Position numbers and translations under genes: made by a program
Source: Elusimicrobiota bacterium
Lineage (GTDB): Bacteria; Elusimicrobiota; Elusimicrobia; UBA1565; UBA9628
Length of the DNA: 34,575 nt
Assembly: GCA_030696455.1 (NCBI GenBank)
Contig: JAUYSH010000071.1
Span: 1-34,575 of the forward strand
Reading direction: 5' to 3'
In this document: piece by piece, positions 5,980 through 9,580 of the stretch
Numbering within the stretch: position 1 is the first letter of the stretch
How the letters are laid out: each line of letters starts with the position of its first letter
Notes under the pieces: generated by a model
The model's input: the letters and a program-made list of their open reading frames with translations, nothing else
Told to the model about the DNA's origin: nothing
Database searches by the model: none

Positions 5980-6891
5980 TCAAGGCTGGACGTACGGAGC
6001 GAGCAGCACGCGCAGGTCGGCGGGCACTCGCGCCGGGCGCCACAGGTCGGTGACGATCGCGTGGCGCGAACGGACGCGCGCCACGATCTTGCCGCCGAGC
6101 TCTCCGTCGACGACCTCGCAGGAGAACGAGATGCTCGCCCGTCCGAGCTCCGCGATCCAGGTCCGGATCGTGAGCAGGTCGTCGTAGCGGCTCGGCGCCA
6201 GGTATTCACAGTGCGCCGAAACCGCCGGCAGGAAAAGCTTGCGCTGGACCTCGAGGTCGCGGTAGCGCACGCCGAGGGAGCGCAGCAGCTCGGTGCGGCC
6301 CTGCTCGAGATACTTCAGGTAGTTCGCGTAGTAGATGATGCCGGCCTTGTCGGTGTCGGCGTAGGTCACGCGCACCTGGAACTCGTGGAACCTCGCCTTT
6401 CGCCCCGGGGCGTGCGCGGCCGGCTCCCGGCGTTCGGCCGCCTTCGGCTTTTCCTCCGCGGGGGCAGGCGGGGGCGGCGTGCCGGTCGAGTTGGGCAAAG
6501 TCACCTTCGTGATCGCCTGCCGGTCCTCGCCGAGTACCTGGTTGACGACGGACAGGATGCCGGAGAAGCCGACGGGCTTGCGCAGGAAGAAAGTCTTGGC
6601 GCCGGGCTTGATCTTGCCCTTGAGCTCGTCGAGGGTCAGGCCCGTCGAGAAGATGACGGGGGTCGCGGCGGTCATCGGCGAGGCGCGCAGGCGCTCATAG
6701 GCCGCGCCGCCGTCCACCCCGGGCATGTAGAAGTCGAGGATGATGAGGTCCGGGCGCAGCTCCTGGGCCAGGAGTATGCCCTGCGCGGCGTCGAAGGCGA
6801 CGGCCACGCGGTAGCCCGCCGACTCGAGGCCGTCCTTGAGCGGTGCGACCAACGTGACGTCGTCATCGACGACGAGGATCGTGCGGGACAT
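5980..6891 (-). CDS. Response-regulator receiver domain fused to a YbgC-type acyl-CoA thioesterase
   Basis: The 303-residue protein joins two unrelated domains. Residues 1-125 form a CheY-like receiver with the acidic pair D9-D11, phospho-acceptor D53 (ILDFYMPG), the switch threonine T83 and K105 (LRKP), all of the residues expected for phosphorylation. A linker rich in Pro, Ala and Glu (about 135-165) leads to a 4HBT hot-dog domain (168-300) with the YbgC-type active site: VTYADTDKAGIIYYANYLKY, where D181 is the predicted catalytic Asp, and the LEQGRTELLR helix. Both halves are in a single uninterrupted frame, so the fusion is not produced by a frameshift. Receiver-thioesterase fusion would allow phosphorylation to control acyl-thioester hydrolysis; that is inference. 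No histidine kinase is present nearby. It is followed after eight bases by the SUMF1-like gene. Confidence 0.88.
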   Translation of the reverse strand: MSRTILVVDDDVTLVAPLKDGLESAGYRVAVAFDAAQGILLAQELRPDLIILDFYMPGVDGGAAYERLRASPMTAATPVIFSTGLTLDELKGKIKPGAKTFFLRKPVGFSGILSVVNQVLGEDRQAITKVTLPNSTGTPPPPAPAEEKPKAAERREPAAHAPGRKARFHEFQVRVTYADTDKAGIIYYANYLKYLEQGRTELLRSLGVRYRDLEVQRKLFLPAVSAHCEYLAPSRYDDLLTIRTWIAELGRASISFSCEVVDGELGGKIVARVRSRHAIVTDLWRPARVPADLRVLLAPYVQP

Positions 6892-6900
6892 GGAAGGCTC

Positions 6901-6906
6901 AGCTTA
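6901..6906 (-). promoter_or_regulatory. Possible -10 hexamer for the REC-thioesterase gene
   Basis: TAAGCT lies nine bases before the ATG at 6891. It keeps the TAnnnT pattern of other promoters in the window, but no convincing -35 is seen, and the gene has no Shine-Dalgarno sequence. Tentative. Confidence 0.3.
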
Positions 6907-6937
6907 CAAATTCGGCCGGGGCCCGTCCAGACGCCGT

Positions 6938-7404
6938 TTACTTCGTCCCGGTGACGGTCGCCGCGACGCGGCGATTCACGGCGCGGTTGGCCGCGCCGTC
7001 GTTGGCGACGAGCGGCCGCTCGGGGCCGTAGCCGACGGCGCTCAGGCGCGCGCCGTCCGCGCCGAAGCGGTCGATCAGGGCCTGGCGCACCGCGTCCGCG
7101 CGCCGCTGAGAGAGTCCTTTGTTGGAAGCGGCGTCGCCGACGTCATCGGTGTGGCCCTCGATCTCGGCCTTGCTGTCGGGGTAGGCCTTGAGGAAGTCGG
7201 AGACCTTCTTGAGCTGGTCATCTACTCGGGCTTGACCACCGCCTGGGCGGTGTCGAACTTGACTTCGAGAGCGACGGTCACCTTCTCGGGCGCGGGAGCC
7301 GGGGCGGGGGCTGGAGCGGCGGCGACGGCCGGCGCGGCAGACGCGTGCGGGAAGTTGGGCAGGGTCAGGCCGCAGCAGGCGGCGAGCGGGGCGATCCGCT
7401 TCAT
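6938..7404 (-). pseudogene. OmpA-like outer-membrane/peptidoglycan-binding protein, interrupted by a one-base frameshift
   Basis: The ATG at 7404 has a good ribosome binding site (AGAGGAG, five bases upstream) and starts a signal peptide (MKRIAPLAACCG...ASA), an Ala/Pro-rich linker and the first strand of an OmpA C-terminal domain (LEVKFDTAQAVVKPE), then meets TAG at 7222-7224. The rest of the domain continues in another frame: LKKVSDFLKAYPDS, IEGHTDDVG, LSQRRADAVRQAL, GYGPERPLVAND, NRAVNRRVAATV, ending with TAA at 6938. Adding one base at about 7222-7224 turns TAG ATG ACC AG into a Tyr-Asp-Asp-Gln sequence and restores a KPEYDDQLKK join that matches the family (KPEYYDELKK). About 155 residues would result. 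The clean single-base repair suggests a recent mutation or a sequencing error. It follows mscL by ten bases. Confidence 0.85.
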
Positions 7405-7414
7405 GGCGTCTCCT

Positions 7415-7825
7415 CTAAGCGGACTGGGGCTGCGTGCAAAAGCCGCAGCGCTTGGCGCGCAGCGGGATGTTGTGAAGGCACTCGGCGCAGGCCTTCTCGG
7501 TCGGAGTGGGCGGCGCGACGGGCTCTGCCCGCTTGAGGGAATTGATGGCCTTGACCGCGGCGAACACCGCCGCGGCGAGGATCACGAAGTCGATGATGTT
7601 CGTGACGAAGGCGCCGTAGTTCACGGTCACGGGCTTCGCCTCGCCCACGGCGTGCTTGAGGATCACGACCTTGTCGGTGAAGTCCACGCCGCCCATCAGC
7701 ATCCCGAGGGGCGGCATCACGACGTCGTTGAGAAGGGAGCTCACGATCGTGCCGAAGGCGCCGCCGATGATGACGCCGACGGCCATGTCCATCACGTTGC
7801 CCTTGAGTGCGAATTCCTTGACCAT
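7415..7825 (-). CDS. mscL: Large-conductance mechanosensitive channel with a C-terminal zinc ribbon
   Basis: MscL is the homopentameric emergency valve of the inner membrane that opens on hypo-osmotic shock. The 136-residue product begins MVKEFALKGNVMDMAVGVIIGGAFGTIVSSLLNDVV, the hallmark N-terminal helix plus pore-lining TM1, followed by the periplasmic loop and TM2 (NYGAFVTNIIDFVILAAAVFAAVKAIN). The usual C-terminal helical bundle is replaced or extended by a zinc-ribbon-like end with two CxxC pairs (CAEC, CGFC); comparable tails occur in some MscL proteins. ATG 7825 is chosen because it starts the family N-terminus. It is followed after ten bases by the OmpA-like gene and is divergent from the dehydratase operon. 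Confidence 0.95.
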   Translation of the reverse strand: MVKEFALKGNVMDMAVGVIIGGAFGTIVSSLLNDVVMPPLGMLMGGVDFTDKVVILKHAVGEAKPVTVNYGAFVTNIIDFVILAAAVFAAVKAINSLKRAEPVAPPTPTEKACAECLHNIPLRAKRCGFCTQPQSA

Positions 7826-7888
7826 GCTCACGGGGGCGATGCTACCGCAACGCGAACGCGGAGTCCATGCCGCGACGCAAGGTTTAAG

Positions 7889-7894
7889 TATAAT
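7889..7894 (+). promoter_or_regulatory. TATAAT -10 element of the dehydratase operon
   Basis: A perfect TATAAT lies 13 bases before the ATG at 7908. The predicted transcript start near 7901 would leave about seven untranslated bases and no Shine-Dalgarno site. An in-frame ATG at 7893 overlaps this hexamer and so is not the start. Confidence 0.5.
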
Positions 7895-7907
7895 GGCCGG
7901 GCCCCTC

Positions 7908-9092
7908 ATGAAATTCGATGAATTCCGCAGCCGGACGGCCTTCAGTCCCGACGAAATCCTTTCCTTCGTCGCGGGCCGCTTGCTGGAAGACGCCCCCGCC
8001 GGCCTGCCCGCCCTGCCGGGGGCGCTGCTCGCCCCGTTCCACGAGATCACCGACCTCCGTTGGGACGCGGCGACCGGGACCGGCCGCATCGAGGCGGTGC
8101 GGCGCAACAAGCTCGACGATTGGTTCTACCCCTGCCACTTCCAAGGCGACCCCGTGATGCCCGGCTGCTGGGGCGTGGACGCCGCCTGGCAGTGCCTGCG
8201 CTTCTTCGCCGCCTGGCGGGGCCTGACGGGCTGCGGCCGGACCATGGGCATGGAGAACGTCTCCTTCTTCGGCCAGATCCGTCCGTACGACAAGGAAATC
8301 GTTTACGTGGTCGACGTGACGTCCAAGGAATCCGCCGACGGCGAAACGATGCTGACCGGCAAGGCGACGGTCTCCGTGGACGGTACCCTCGTCTACACGA
8401 TCGGCTCCGTCTCCATCGCGACCTCCTTCTGGACCGACGACGCTCCGGCGAGACCGGCGCCGGTTCCCGCCGCCGGCGACGCGCCGATCCGCAAGCTCAC
8501 TTACGACGAGTTCTCCGCCAAGTCGAAGTTCAGCCACGCCGAGATCGTCGCCGTCTCCCAGGGGACCTTGATCGACGCCCCCGGCCTCGAGGTCGGGCTC
8601 CTGCCTTCCTCGCTCATGCTCGAGGTCGGGGCGATCGACCGCCTCGTCTTCGACGAGGCCACGGGGGAGGGCTCGATCTCGGCCTCGCGCGGCAACGGCC
8701 CGCTCGAATGGTTCTACCCGATGACCCCGGGCTTCAAGCCGACGGTGCTCTCCATCGACGCCGTCTGGCAGCTCATGGGGCTTTTCCTCACCTGGCGCCA
8801 GAACCTCGGCACGGGCCGGGCGCTCGGGTTCGAGCGGGTCGAGGTGTTCGGCGAGATTCTCCCCGAGGACCGCGACATCCGCTACGAGATCGCGATCGTG
8901 CGCTACTCGCGCGCGCCCAACGGTGACGCCTTCGTGCGCGCCGACGCGAAGGTCTTCGCGGGCGGCCGCCTCATCCTCGCCGCCGCCAACCTCAACGTCG
9001 GCTGCCACAAGAACATCCGCTACTCGGGGTACCCGCTGCCGAGCGAAATGGCGCTCGGCGGCAAGCTCAAGATCAGGGAGACCGCCGCATGA
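7908..9092 (+). CDS. Tandem FabA-like 3-hydroxyacyl-ACP dehydratase with one intact active-site His
   Basis: The 394-residue protein contains two FabA-type hot-dog domains. Domain 1 (about residues 1-178) has WFYPCHFQGDPVMPGCWGVDAAWQ, keeping the FabA catalytic H77 and D91. Domain 2 (about 195-375) aligns as WFYPMTPGFKPTVLSIDAVWQ: the His is replaced (T273) but the Asp is kept (D284), and GTGRALGFERVEVFGEILP and DGRLIY-like strands are retained. In the FabA homodimer each active site uses His from one subunit and Asp from the other, so the H77/D284 pair could form one working site while the other is dead; this is inference. Tandem FabA-like domains are known in polyunsaturated fatty acid synthases (PfaC). 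The ATG of the next gene overlaps its stop (ATGA). Confidence 0.88.
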   Translation: MKFDEFRSRTAFSPDEILSFVAGRLLEDAPAGLPALPGALLAPFHEITDLRWDAATGTGRIEAVRRNKLDDWFYPCHFQGDPVMPGCWGVDAAWQCLRFFAAWRGLTGCGRTMGMENVSFFGQIRPYDKEIVYVVDVTSKESADGETMLTGKATVSVDGTLVYTIGSVSIATSFWTDDAPARPAPVPAAGDAPIRKLTYDEFSAKSKFSHAEIVAVSQGTLIDAPGLEVGLLPSSLMLEVGAIDRLVFDEATGEGSISASRGNGPLEWFYPMTPGFKPTVLSIDAVWQLMGLFLTWRQNLGTGRALGFERVEVFGEILPEDRDIRYEIAIVRYSRAPNGDAFVRADAKVFAGGRLILAAANLNVGCHKNIRYSGYPLPSEMALGGKLKIRETAA

Positions 9093-9580
9093 CCGTCCTG
9101 ACCCCCGCGCAGGTGCTGGCGCTCGTCCCCCAGCAAAGGCCGATGCGCTTCATCGACGAGATCGTCGAGGTGGACGCCGACCACATCGTCGGCACCTACA
9201 CGTGGACGCCCGAGGACTGCGCGGGCTACTCCCCCGACGGCACGATCGCCCCCCCGTTCAAGATGATCGAGATGGGCGCGCAGATCGGCAGCGTCGCGTG
9301 GTGCATCTACCACATGACGCTCAAGATGACCCCGGAGGAGATCGCCCTGCTCGTCGGCTTCTTCACGCAGGTCGACGGCGTCGAGTTCTTCGAGACCGTG
9401 CGCGCGGGCGACAAGGTCGCCTGCATGGCCAGCTTCGAGCCCGAGGGCTACTTCCGCGAGGGCAAGCTCGTCAGCTGCATCGAGTTCCAGTTCGACGGCG
9501 GACCCAAGGACGGCCGGACGATCATGACCGGCCTCGTCGGCGGCATGTGGGTCCCGAAAACGTCCCCGACGCTCGGATAA
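9089..9580 (+). CDS. FabZ-like hot-dog protein lacking the catalytic histidine
   Basis: The 163-residue protein resembles FabZ/FabA-type dehydratases: QVLALVPQQRPMRFIDEIVEVDADHIVGTYTW matches the FabZ opening (PHRYPFLLVDRV), and GYSPDGTIAPPFKMIEMGAQ aligns with the FabZ GHFPGKPIFPG...LEAMAQ helix. The catalytic His is Tyr (Y47), while the Glu is retained (E61). It is therefore unlikely to dehydrate on its own unless its active site is shared. It overlaps the tandem FabA-like gene by four bases, suggesting a translationally coupled pair that forms a complex. A role as a structural or substrate-gating subunit of a specialised acyl dehydratase is inferred, not shown. No ketosynthase or acyl carrier protein gene lies in the window. 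Confidence 0.75.
   Translation: MTVLTPAQVLALVPQQRPMRFIDEIVEVDADHIVGTYTWTPEDCAGYSPDGTIAPPFKMIEMGAQIGSVAWCIYHMTLKMTPEEIALLVGFFTQVDGVEFFETVRAGDKVACMASFEPEGYFREGKLVSCIEFQFDGGPKDGRTIMTGLVGGMWVPKTSPTLG

Follow-up and report, generated by a model that had tools for sequence, protein, structure and literature searches.

The window analysed here is the whole of a 34,575-nucleotide contig (JAUYSH010000071.1, our C82) from an Elusimicrobiota bacterium whose 4.0-Mb assembly (GCA_030696455.1) comprises 147 contigs; its near relatives are all metagenome-assembled genomes. On the minus strand, a single open frame of 303 codons, from the ATG at 6891 to the stop at 5980, encodes a CheY-type receiver (REC) joined through a Pro/Ala-rich linker to a YbgC/FadM-type 4HBT hotdog thioesterase domain (Table 1). 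The initial annotation, made from the letters of the sequence, was correct in describing one uninterrupted frame, in naming D53, T83 and K105 of the receiver, in calling the linker Pro/Ala-rich and in placing D181 in a DTD motif, found in this protein as Y177-A-D-T-D181.

Table 1. Coordinates of the receiver-thioesterase gene, its parts and the two genus g19 fusions
Feature	Position	Strand	Details
Whole gene, REC-linker-4HBT, 303 aa	5980..6891	-	ATG at 6891, stop codon 5980-5982; same layout in 31 fusions of the order
Receiver domain (REC, CheY-type), residues 1-124	6520..6891	-	PF00072, 5.8e-17; alternating strands and helices, pLDDT mostly 80-95
D9 D10, acidic metal-ion-binding pair of receivers	6862..6867	-	Invariant in all fusions
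D53, predicted phosphorylation site	6733..6735	-	Invariant in all fusions
T83, conserved T/S of receivers	6643..6645	-	T in 21/24 and S in 3/24 of the family; T or S in f2 and f3
K105, conserved lysine of receivers	6577..6579	-	Invariant in all fusions
Pro/Ala-rich linker, residues 125-167	6391..6519	-	Low pLDDT, dN/dS 0.76, variable length
YbgC/FadM-type 4HBT hotdog thioesterase domain, residues 168-303	5983..6390	-	PF03061, PF13279, TIGR00051, Foldseek
Active-site motif YADTDKAGIIYYANYLKYLEQGR, residues 177-199	6295..6363	-	Catalytic Asp predicted at D181 (6349-6351), invariant in 24/24 family sequences
Tentative promoter, -10-like element (ttgtaagct) in a short upstream stretch	6892..6915	-	By-eye likeness to relatives; weak here
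Genus g19 fusions with intact receiver and broken motif	L155 7307-8245; L154 7154-8014	-	G233; G234

Both halves of the protein were recognised by curated models. The Pfam model PF00072 (Response_reg) matched residues 5-115 with 62.3 bits against a curated cut-off of 30.2 (5.8e-17), and PF03061 (4HBT, residues 184-264, 4e-15) and PF13279 (4HBT_2, residues 175-294, 1.9e-13) also scored above their curated cut-offs. The second half reached 87.7 bits with the NCBIfam model TIGR00051 (YbgC/FadM; cut-off 68.7), and the tol-pal equivalog TIGR02799 was missed at 95.4 against 141.35 bits. The AlphaFold2 model of the window protein gave a confident receiver and a confident hotdog separated by a disordered linker, with predicted local distance difference test (pLDDT) values below 50 across most of residues 123-163; at a predicted template modelling score (pTM) of 0.47, the model predicts no fixed placement of the domains relative to each other. 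The best PDB matches of the hotdog in Foldseek were the YbgC structures 5v10, 1s5u, 5t07 and 5t06, and the older PROSITE-type pattern quoted in PMC516016 fits by eye, apart from an I where it has V and a Y where it has H/F, at one position each. By family, fold and aspartate motif, the second half thus classifies as a YbgC/FadM-type thioesterase, with acyl-CoA hydrolysis as its predicted reaction.

The fusion was found in all three families of the window's order, a group of uncultured Elusimicrobiota, 31 times in total. The window's own family contributes 24 full-length fusions, including that of the window, from genera g1, g2, g3, g4, g5, g11 and g12, and the sister families f2 and f3 contribute seven more; at an eighth locus (G226) the contig stops short of where REC would lie. 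When 341 genomes of the phylum were scanned, close homologues in fusion-length frames were confined to this order, and the homologues read out from outside it are stand-alone, in stop-to-stop frames of 131-169 aa. A wider scan of genome contigs, seeded on YbgC-type motifs and covering the best 80 of at least 579 relatives, returned fusions only from Elusimicrobia records and from L070, a record titled only 'bacterium' whose frame and length agree with those of L152, a window-order locus of G227; a receiver fused to another 4HBT subfamily could have escaped these seeds. Among plasmid records, none matches 80% of the protein at a single place, and no chain spanning both domains occurs among the 60 best of 298 PDB matches. 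One seeming match to both domains, at 2899-5112 of L072 (Myxococcota bacterium Prado146), was rejected as two separate genes, a 555-aa frame with a receiver at its end and a stand-alone YbgC gene close behind. The rarity that the initial annotation had suspected for this combination as an output is supported.

Residue conservation was analysed for both domains. D9, D10, D53, F102, K105 and P106 are invariant in 31/31 fusions and position 83 is T or S, in agreement with the expectation that the receiver residues would be conserved in orthologues. Y177, A178, D179, T180, D181, G184, Y187, Y188, N190 and Y191 are invariant in 24/24 family sequences, and the thioesterase motif is intact in all fusions but the two of genus g19. 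Since 31 fusions share the invariant receiver residues and, apart from the g19 pair, the intact motif, the fusion is far beyond chance. Among 15 fusions of genus g1, median ratios of nonsynonymous to synonymous substitution rates (dN/dS) of 0.18 for REC, 0.20 for 4HBT and 0.76 for the linker indicate that the two domains are under equally strong purifying selection and that the linker is nearly free. Linkers in the order are between 22 and 109 residues long. Identity to the consensus within REC is highest in helix alpha1 (82%) and the K105-P106 loop (85%); among the helices it is lowest in alpha5 (52%) and alpha4 (57%). In known pairs, alpha1 and the K105-P106 loop form the side of the receiver that is contacted by kinases. 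In G022 of genus g4 (L038 / L163), unrelated sequence replaces the last part of the hotdog, probably through a frameshift.

In the tree of 4HBT domains, the stand-alone proteins from other orders group together (100/97), and the fused label changes four times over the whole tree, the drawn root being the midpoint only, G226 being counted as fused and the deep branches within the order being weak. A single fusion followed by about three losses of REC fits the trees. On the receiver side, 18 fusions cluster in a single clade that excludes 33 other receivers, with a support of 96 in the Shimodaira-Hasegawa-like approximate likelihood ratio test (SH-aLRT). Most of the nearest rows in the REC tree come from other receivers in the genome of the window and have long branches; the single-domain receiver in the accA operon of f9 genomes, considered as a possible source of REC, is not among the nearest rows. 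Two separate losses of REC lie within fusion-bearing groups. In G002 (L042 8548-9051), an internal deletion left the first 11 residues of REC, MPRPILVVDDD, joined to RRYHEFQVRV of the hotdog, and in G041 (L160 2999-3442) a 148-aa stop-to-stop frame has no receiver ahead. The REC-less proteins of genus g8 (three genomes) lie on a long branch and could reflect either loss of REC or replacement. The sequence comparison shows that the two domains share one polypeptide, that their active sites are conserved in nearly all members and that both are under purifying selection, and it fits a single fusion event.

We propose that the protein is a response regulator with a YbgC/FadM-type acyl-CoA thioesterase as its output and that phosphorylation changes the working of this thioesterase, a reading to which we assign a probability of about 0.5. 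The conservation of the phosphorylation site and of the kinase-facing surface indicates that REC is used as a receiver, and that of the catalytic motif indicates that nearly all members use the thioesterase as an enzyme. We infer that phosphorylation occurs and affects the thioesterase, and we put forward the substrate and the route of coupling as part of the same model. D53 would receive its phosphoryl group from a histidine kinase whose gene lies elsewhere or from a small phosphodonor, and the phosphorylation state would alter how the attached thioesterase works in the cell. Most likely, the hotdog oligomer would change its assembly or its partners by way of the flexible tether, and this would shift how fast or where acyl-CoA or other acyl thioesters are hydrolysed. 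YbgC-type enzymes are oligomeric in their solved structures. The 'phosphorylation-gated thioesterase' of the initial annotation is plausible, subject to two qualifications: the disordered linker of variable length together with the poorly conserved alpha4 and alpha5, and the broken motif of genus g19.

Several observations weigh against our proposal. REC was lost in G002, in G041 and perhaps in g8, and is thus dispensable there; many genomes of the window's order are without any close homologue; and no kinase gene is a steady neighbour of the fusion that would point to a cognate kinase. The assembly has 69 HATPase_c matches, none of them on the window's contig, which bears out for the window the earlier remark that no partner kinase is present. 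In the two genomes of genus g19, moreover, the thioesterase motif is broken, reading PADCDSSGMIRHEA in G234 and PADAEASGLIRHEV in G233, and REC is intact, which indicates that the output need not always be catalytic. Both genomes carry a further YbgC-like gene with an HTD motif; so does G226, whose fused motif is intact.

Other explanations were weighed against the same evidence. Direct gating, in which REC would sit on the active site of the hotdog or on its dimer interface and be released or engaged by phosphorylation, would agree with the conservation of both domains within one chain and has a precedent in CheB, where REC controls the attached enzyme. It is possible, if unlikely, given the disordered linker of such variable length and the fact that alpha4 and alpha5 vary most among the helices. 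Because the linker is free and disordered and these two helices are variable, a rigid gate appears less likely than a change in oligomer assembly or recruitment, and control is probably exerted by the latter. Alternatively, the hotdog could serve chiefly as a partner that binds acyl-CoA or oligomerises, leaving the receiver as the working part, with acyl-thioester levels feeding into a phosphorelay. The g19 proteins speak for this, since their motif is broken and their REC intact while the G233 protein is still predicted to have a hotdog fold, as does a single-domain receiver gene directly upstream of the fusion in G223, G233 and G234 (L149, L155 and L154), which is perhaps a relay partner. 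As a general account it is distinctly unlikely, because strong purifying selection acts on the catalytic motif in every other family and genus and because it was REC, not the enzyme, that was lost in G002 and G041. A combined view, in which acyl-thioester turnover is placed under a two-component phosphorelay without a transcriptional step and the g19 thioesterase has become a pseudo-enzyme serving the receiver as a ligand-sensing or oligomerising hotdog partner, is offered as a doubtful one.

The well-conserved kinase-facing helix and the variable usual output face would also be expected if REC were a phosphorylation-independent docking tag that merely places the thioesterase at a kinase or another partner; this is very unlikely, as a mere tag would not need D53, K105 and T/S83, which are kept in 31/31 fusions. 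The joining of two genes by a sequencing or assembly error, or by a frameshift, can practically be dismissed: the assembly is in 147 contigs and the adjacent ompA-like gene shows an apparent one-base deletion, but the identical frame layout recurs in 31 separate assemblies from three families, among them G013, a single 3.8-Mb contig, and a stop separating the domains, sought in relatives carrying both, was not found, so the fusion is genuine.

The surroundings of the gene were compared between loci. At most loci of the order, the fusion gene lies tail to tail with a gene for an AI-2E-family transporter, often with a gene for a cyclic nucleoside monophosphate (cNMP)-binding protein beyond; in part of genus g1 it follows mscL, with an OmpA-domain gene intervening in some genomes. 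A -10-like element about 12 nucleotides ahead of the start codon, seen by eye in many relatives, suggests an own promoter and a very short leader for the fusion gene, the likeness being weak for that of the window. The stand-alone orthologues of other orders stand in a row with accA (recognised by sequence, not by a model), aldolase and phosphofructokinase genes, and the g8 stand-alone gene follows a CoA-transferase gene (PF01144) and a YciA-like hotdog gene, the latter recognised by eye. With accA, CoA-transferase and YciA-like genes adjoining the stand-alone orthologues, an acyl-CoA substrate would fit the surroundings. None of tolQ, tolR, tolA, tolB and pal was recognised among the annotated neighbours, a scanned subset of the whole.

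Further genes of the window lie close by. The OmpA-domain gene (6941-7404, minus strand) is split by an apparent one-base deletion near 7223, which is either a real frameshift or an assembly error; its relative in G006 (L046) matches both parts as one uninterrupted piece. A double FabA-type hotdog protein and a FabZ-like protein are encoded at 7656-9580 on the plus strand, divergent from the mscL-ompA-fusion genes, and the tandem-FabA gene group was found near the fusion in seven loci. A formylglycine-generating-enzyme-like gene (PF03781; 5210-5972, minus strand) has its apparent start a few bases past the stop codon of the fusion, and no homologue of it was seen in the relatives' loci.

If the proposal is true, environmental signalling would be linked directly and post-translationally to acyl-thioester (lipid or fermentation) metabolism across a whole order. 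Natural controls are available in the orthologues without REC from the outset, in those from which it was lost and in a genus with REC and a broken enzyme motif, so phospho-control could be put to a direct test with purified proteins. For most response regulators, the targets are DNA, second messengers or chemotaxis proteins. CheB has, like the fusion, a receiver followed by a catalytic domain in one chain, but it is a methylesterase with an unrelated catalytic domain and a chemotaxis substrate. The pairing of REC with a YbgC domain, an old one within this order, is apparently undescribed, while receiver-enzyme fusions in general are known; nothing relevant on a receiver with 4HBT or thioesterase was found in the literature searched, and an earlier mention is possible as the main reviews lie outside that search. 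Receivers joined to metabolic enzymes are a known kind of narrow distribution, reviewed for archaea in PMC5847659; they have the same receiver-plus-enzyme layout, and the word 'thioesterase' is absent from that article. Among hotdog proteins, the CBS-associated type, such as BH3175 of Bacillus halodurans, is a fusion to regulatory domains for which regulation has been proposed (PMC516016); it belongs to another hotdog subfamily and carries a CBS pair and DRTGG where the fusion has a receiver. The sole mention of a response regulator in PMC516016 concerns ComA2 of Bacillus subtilis, a hotdog protein cotranscribed with the response regulator ComA; these are separate polypeptides, the hotdog being of 4HBT class II and ComA DNA-binding, whereas the fusion is one chain. 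The best structural and sequence matches are the YbgC thioesterases (PDB 5v10, 1s5u, 5t06 and 5t07; TIGR00051), which share the hotdog fold and the YxDTDxxGxxYYxNY motif with the fusion and, unlike it, are stand-alone proteins of about 130 aa without a receiver.
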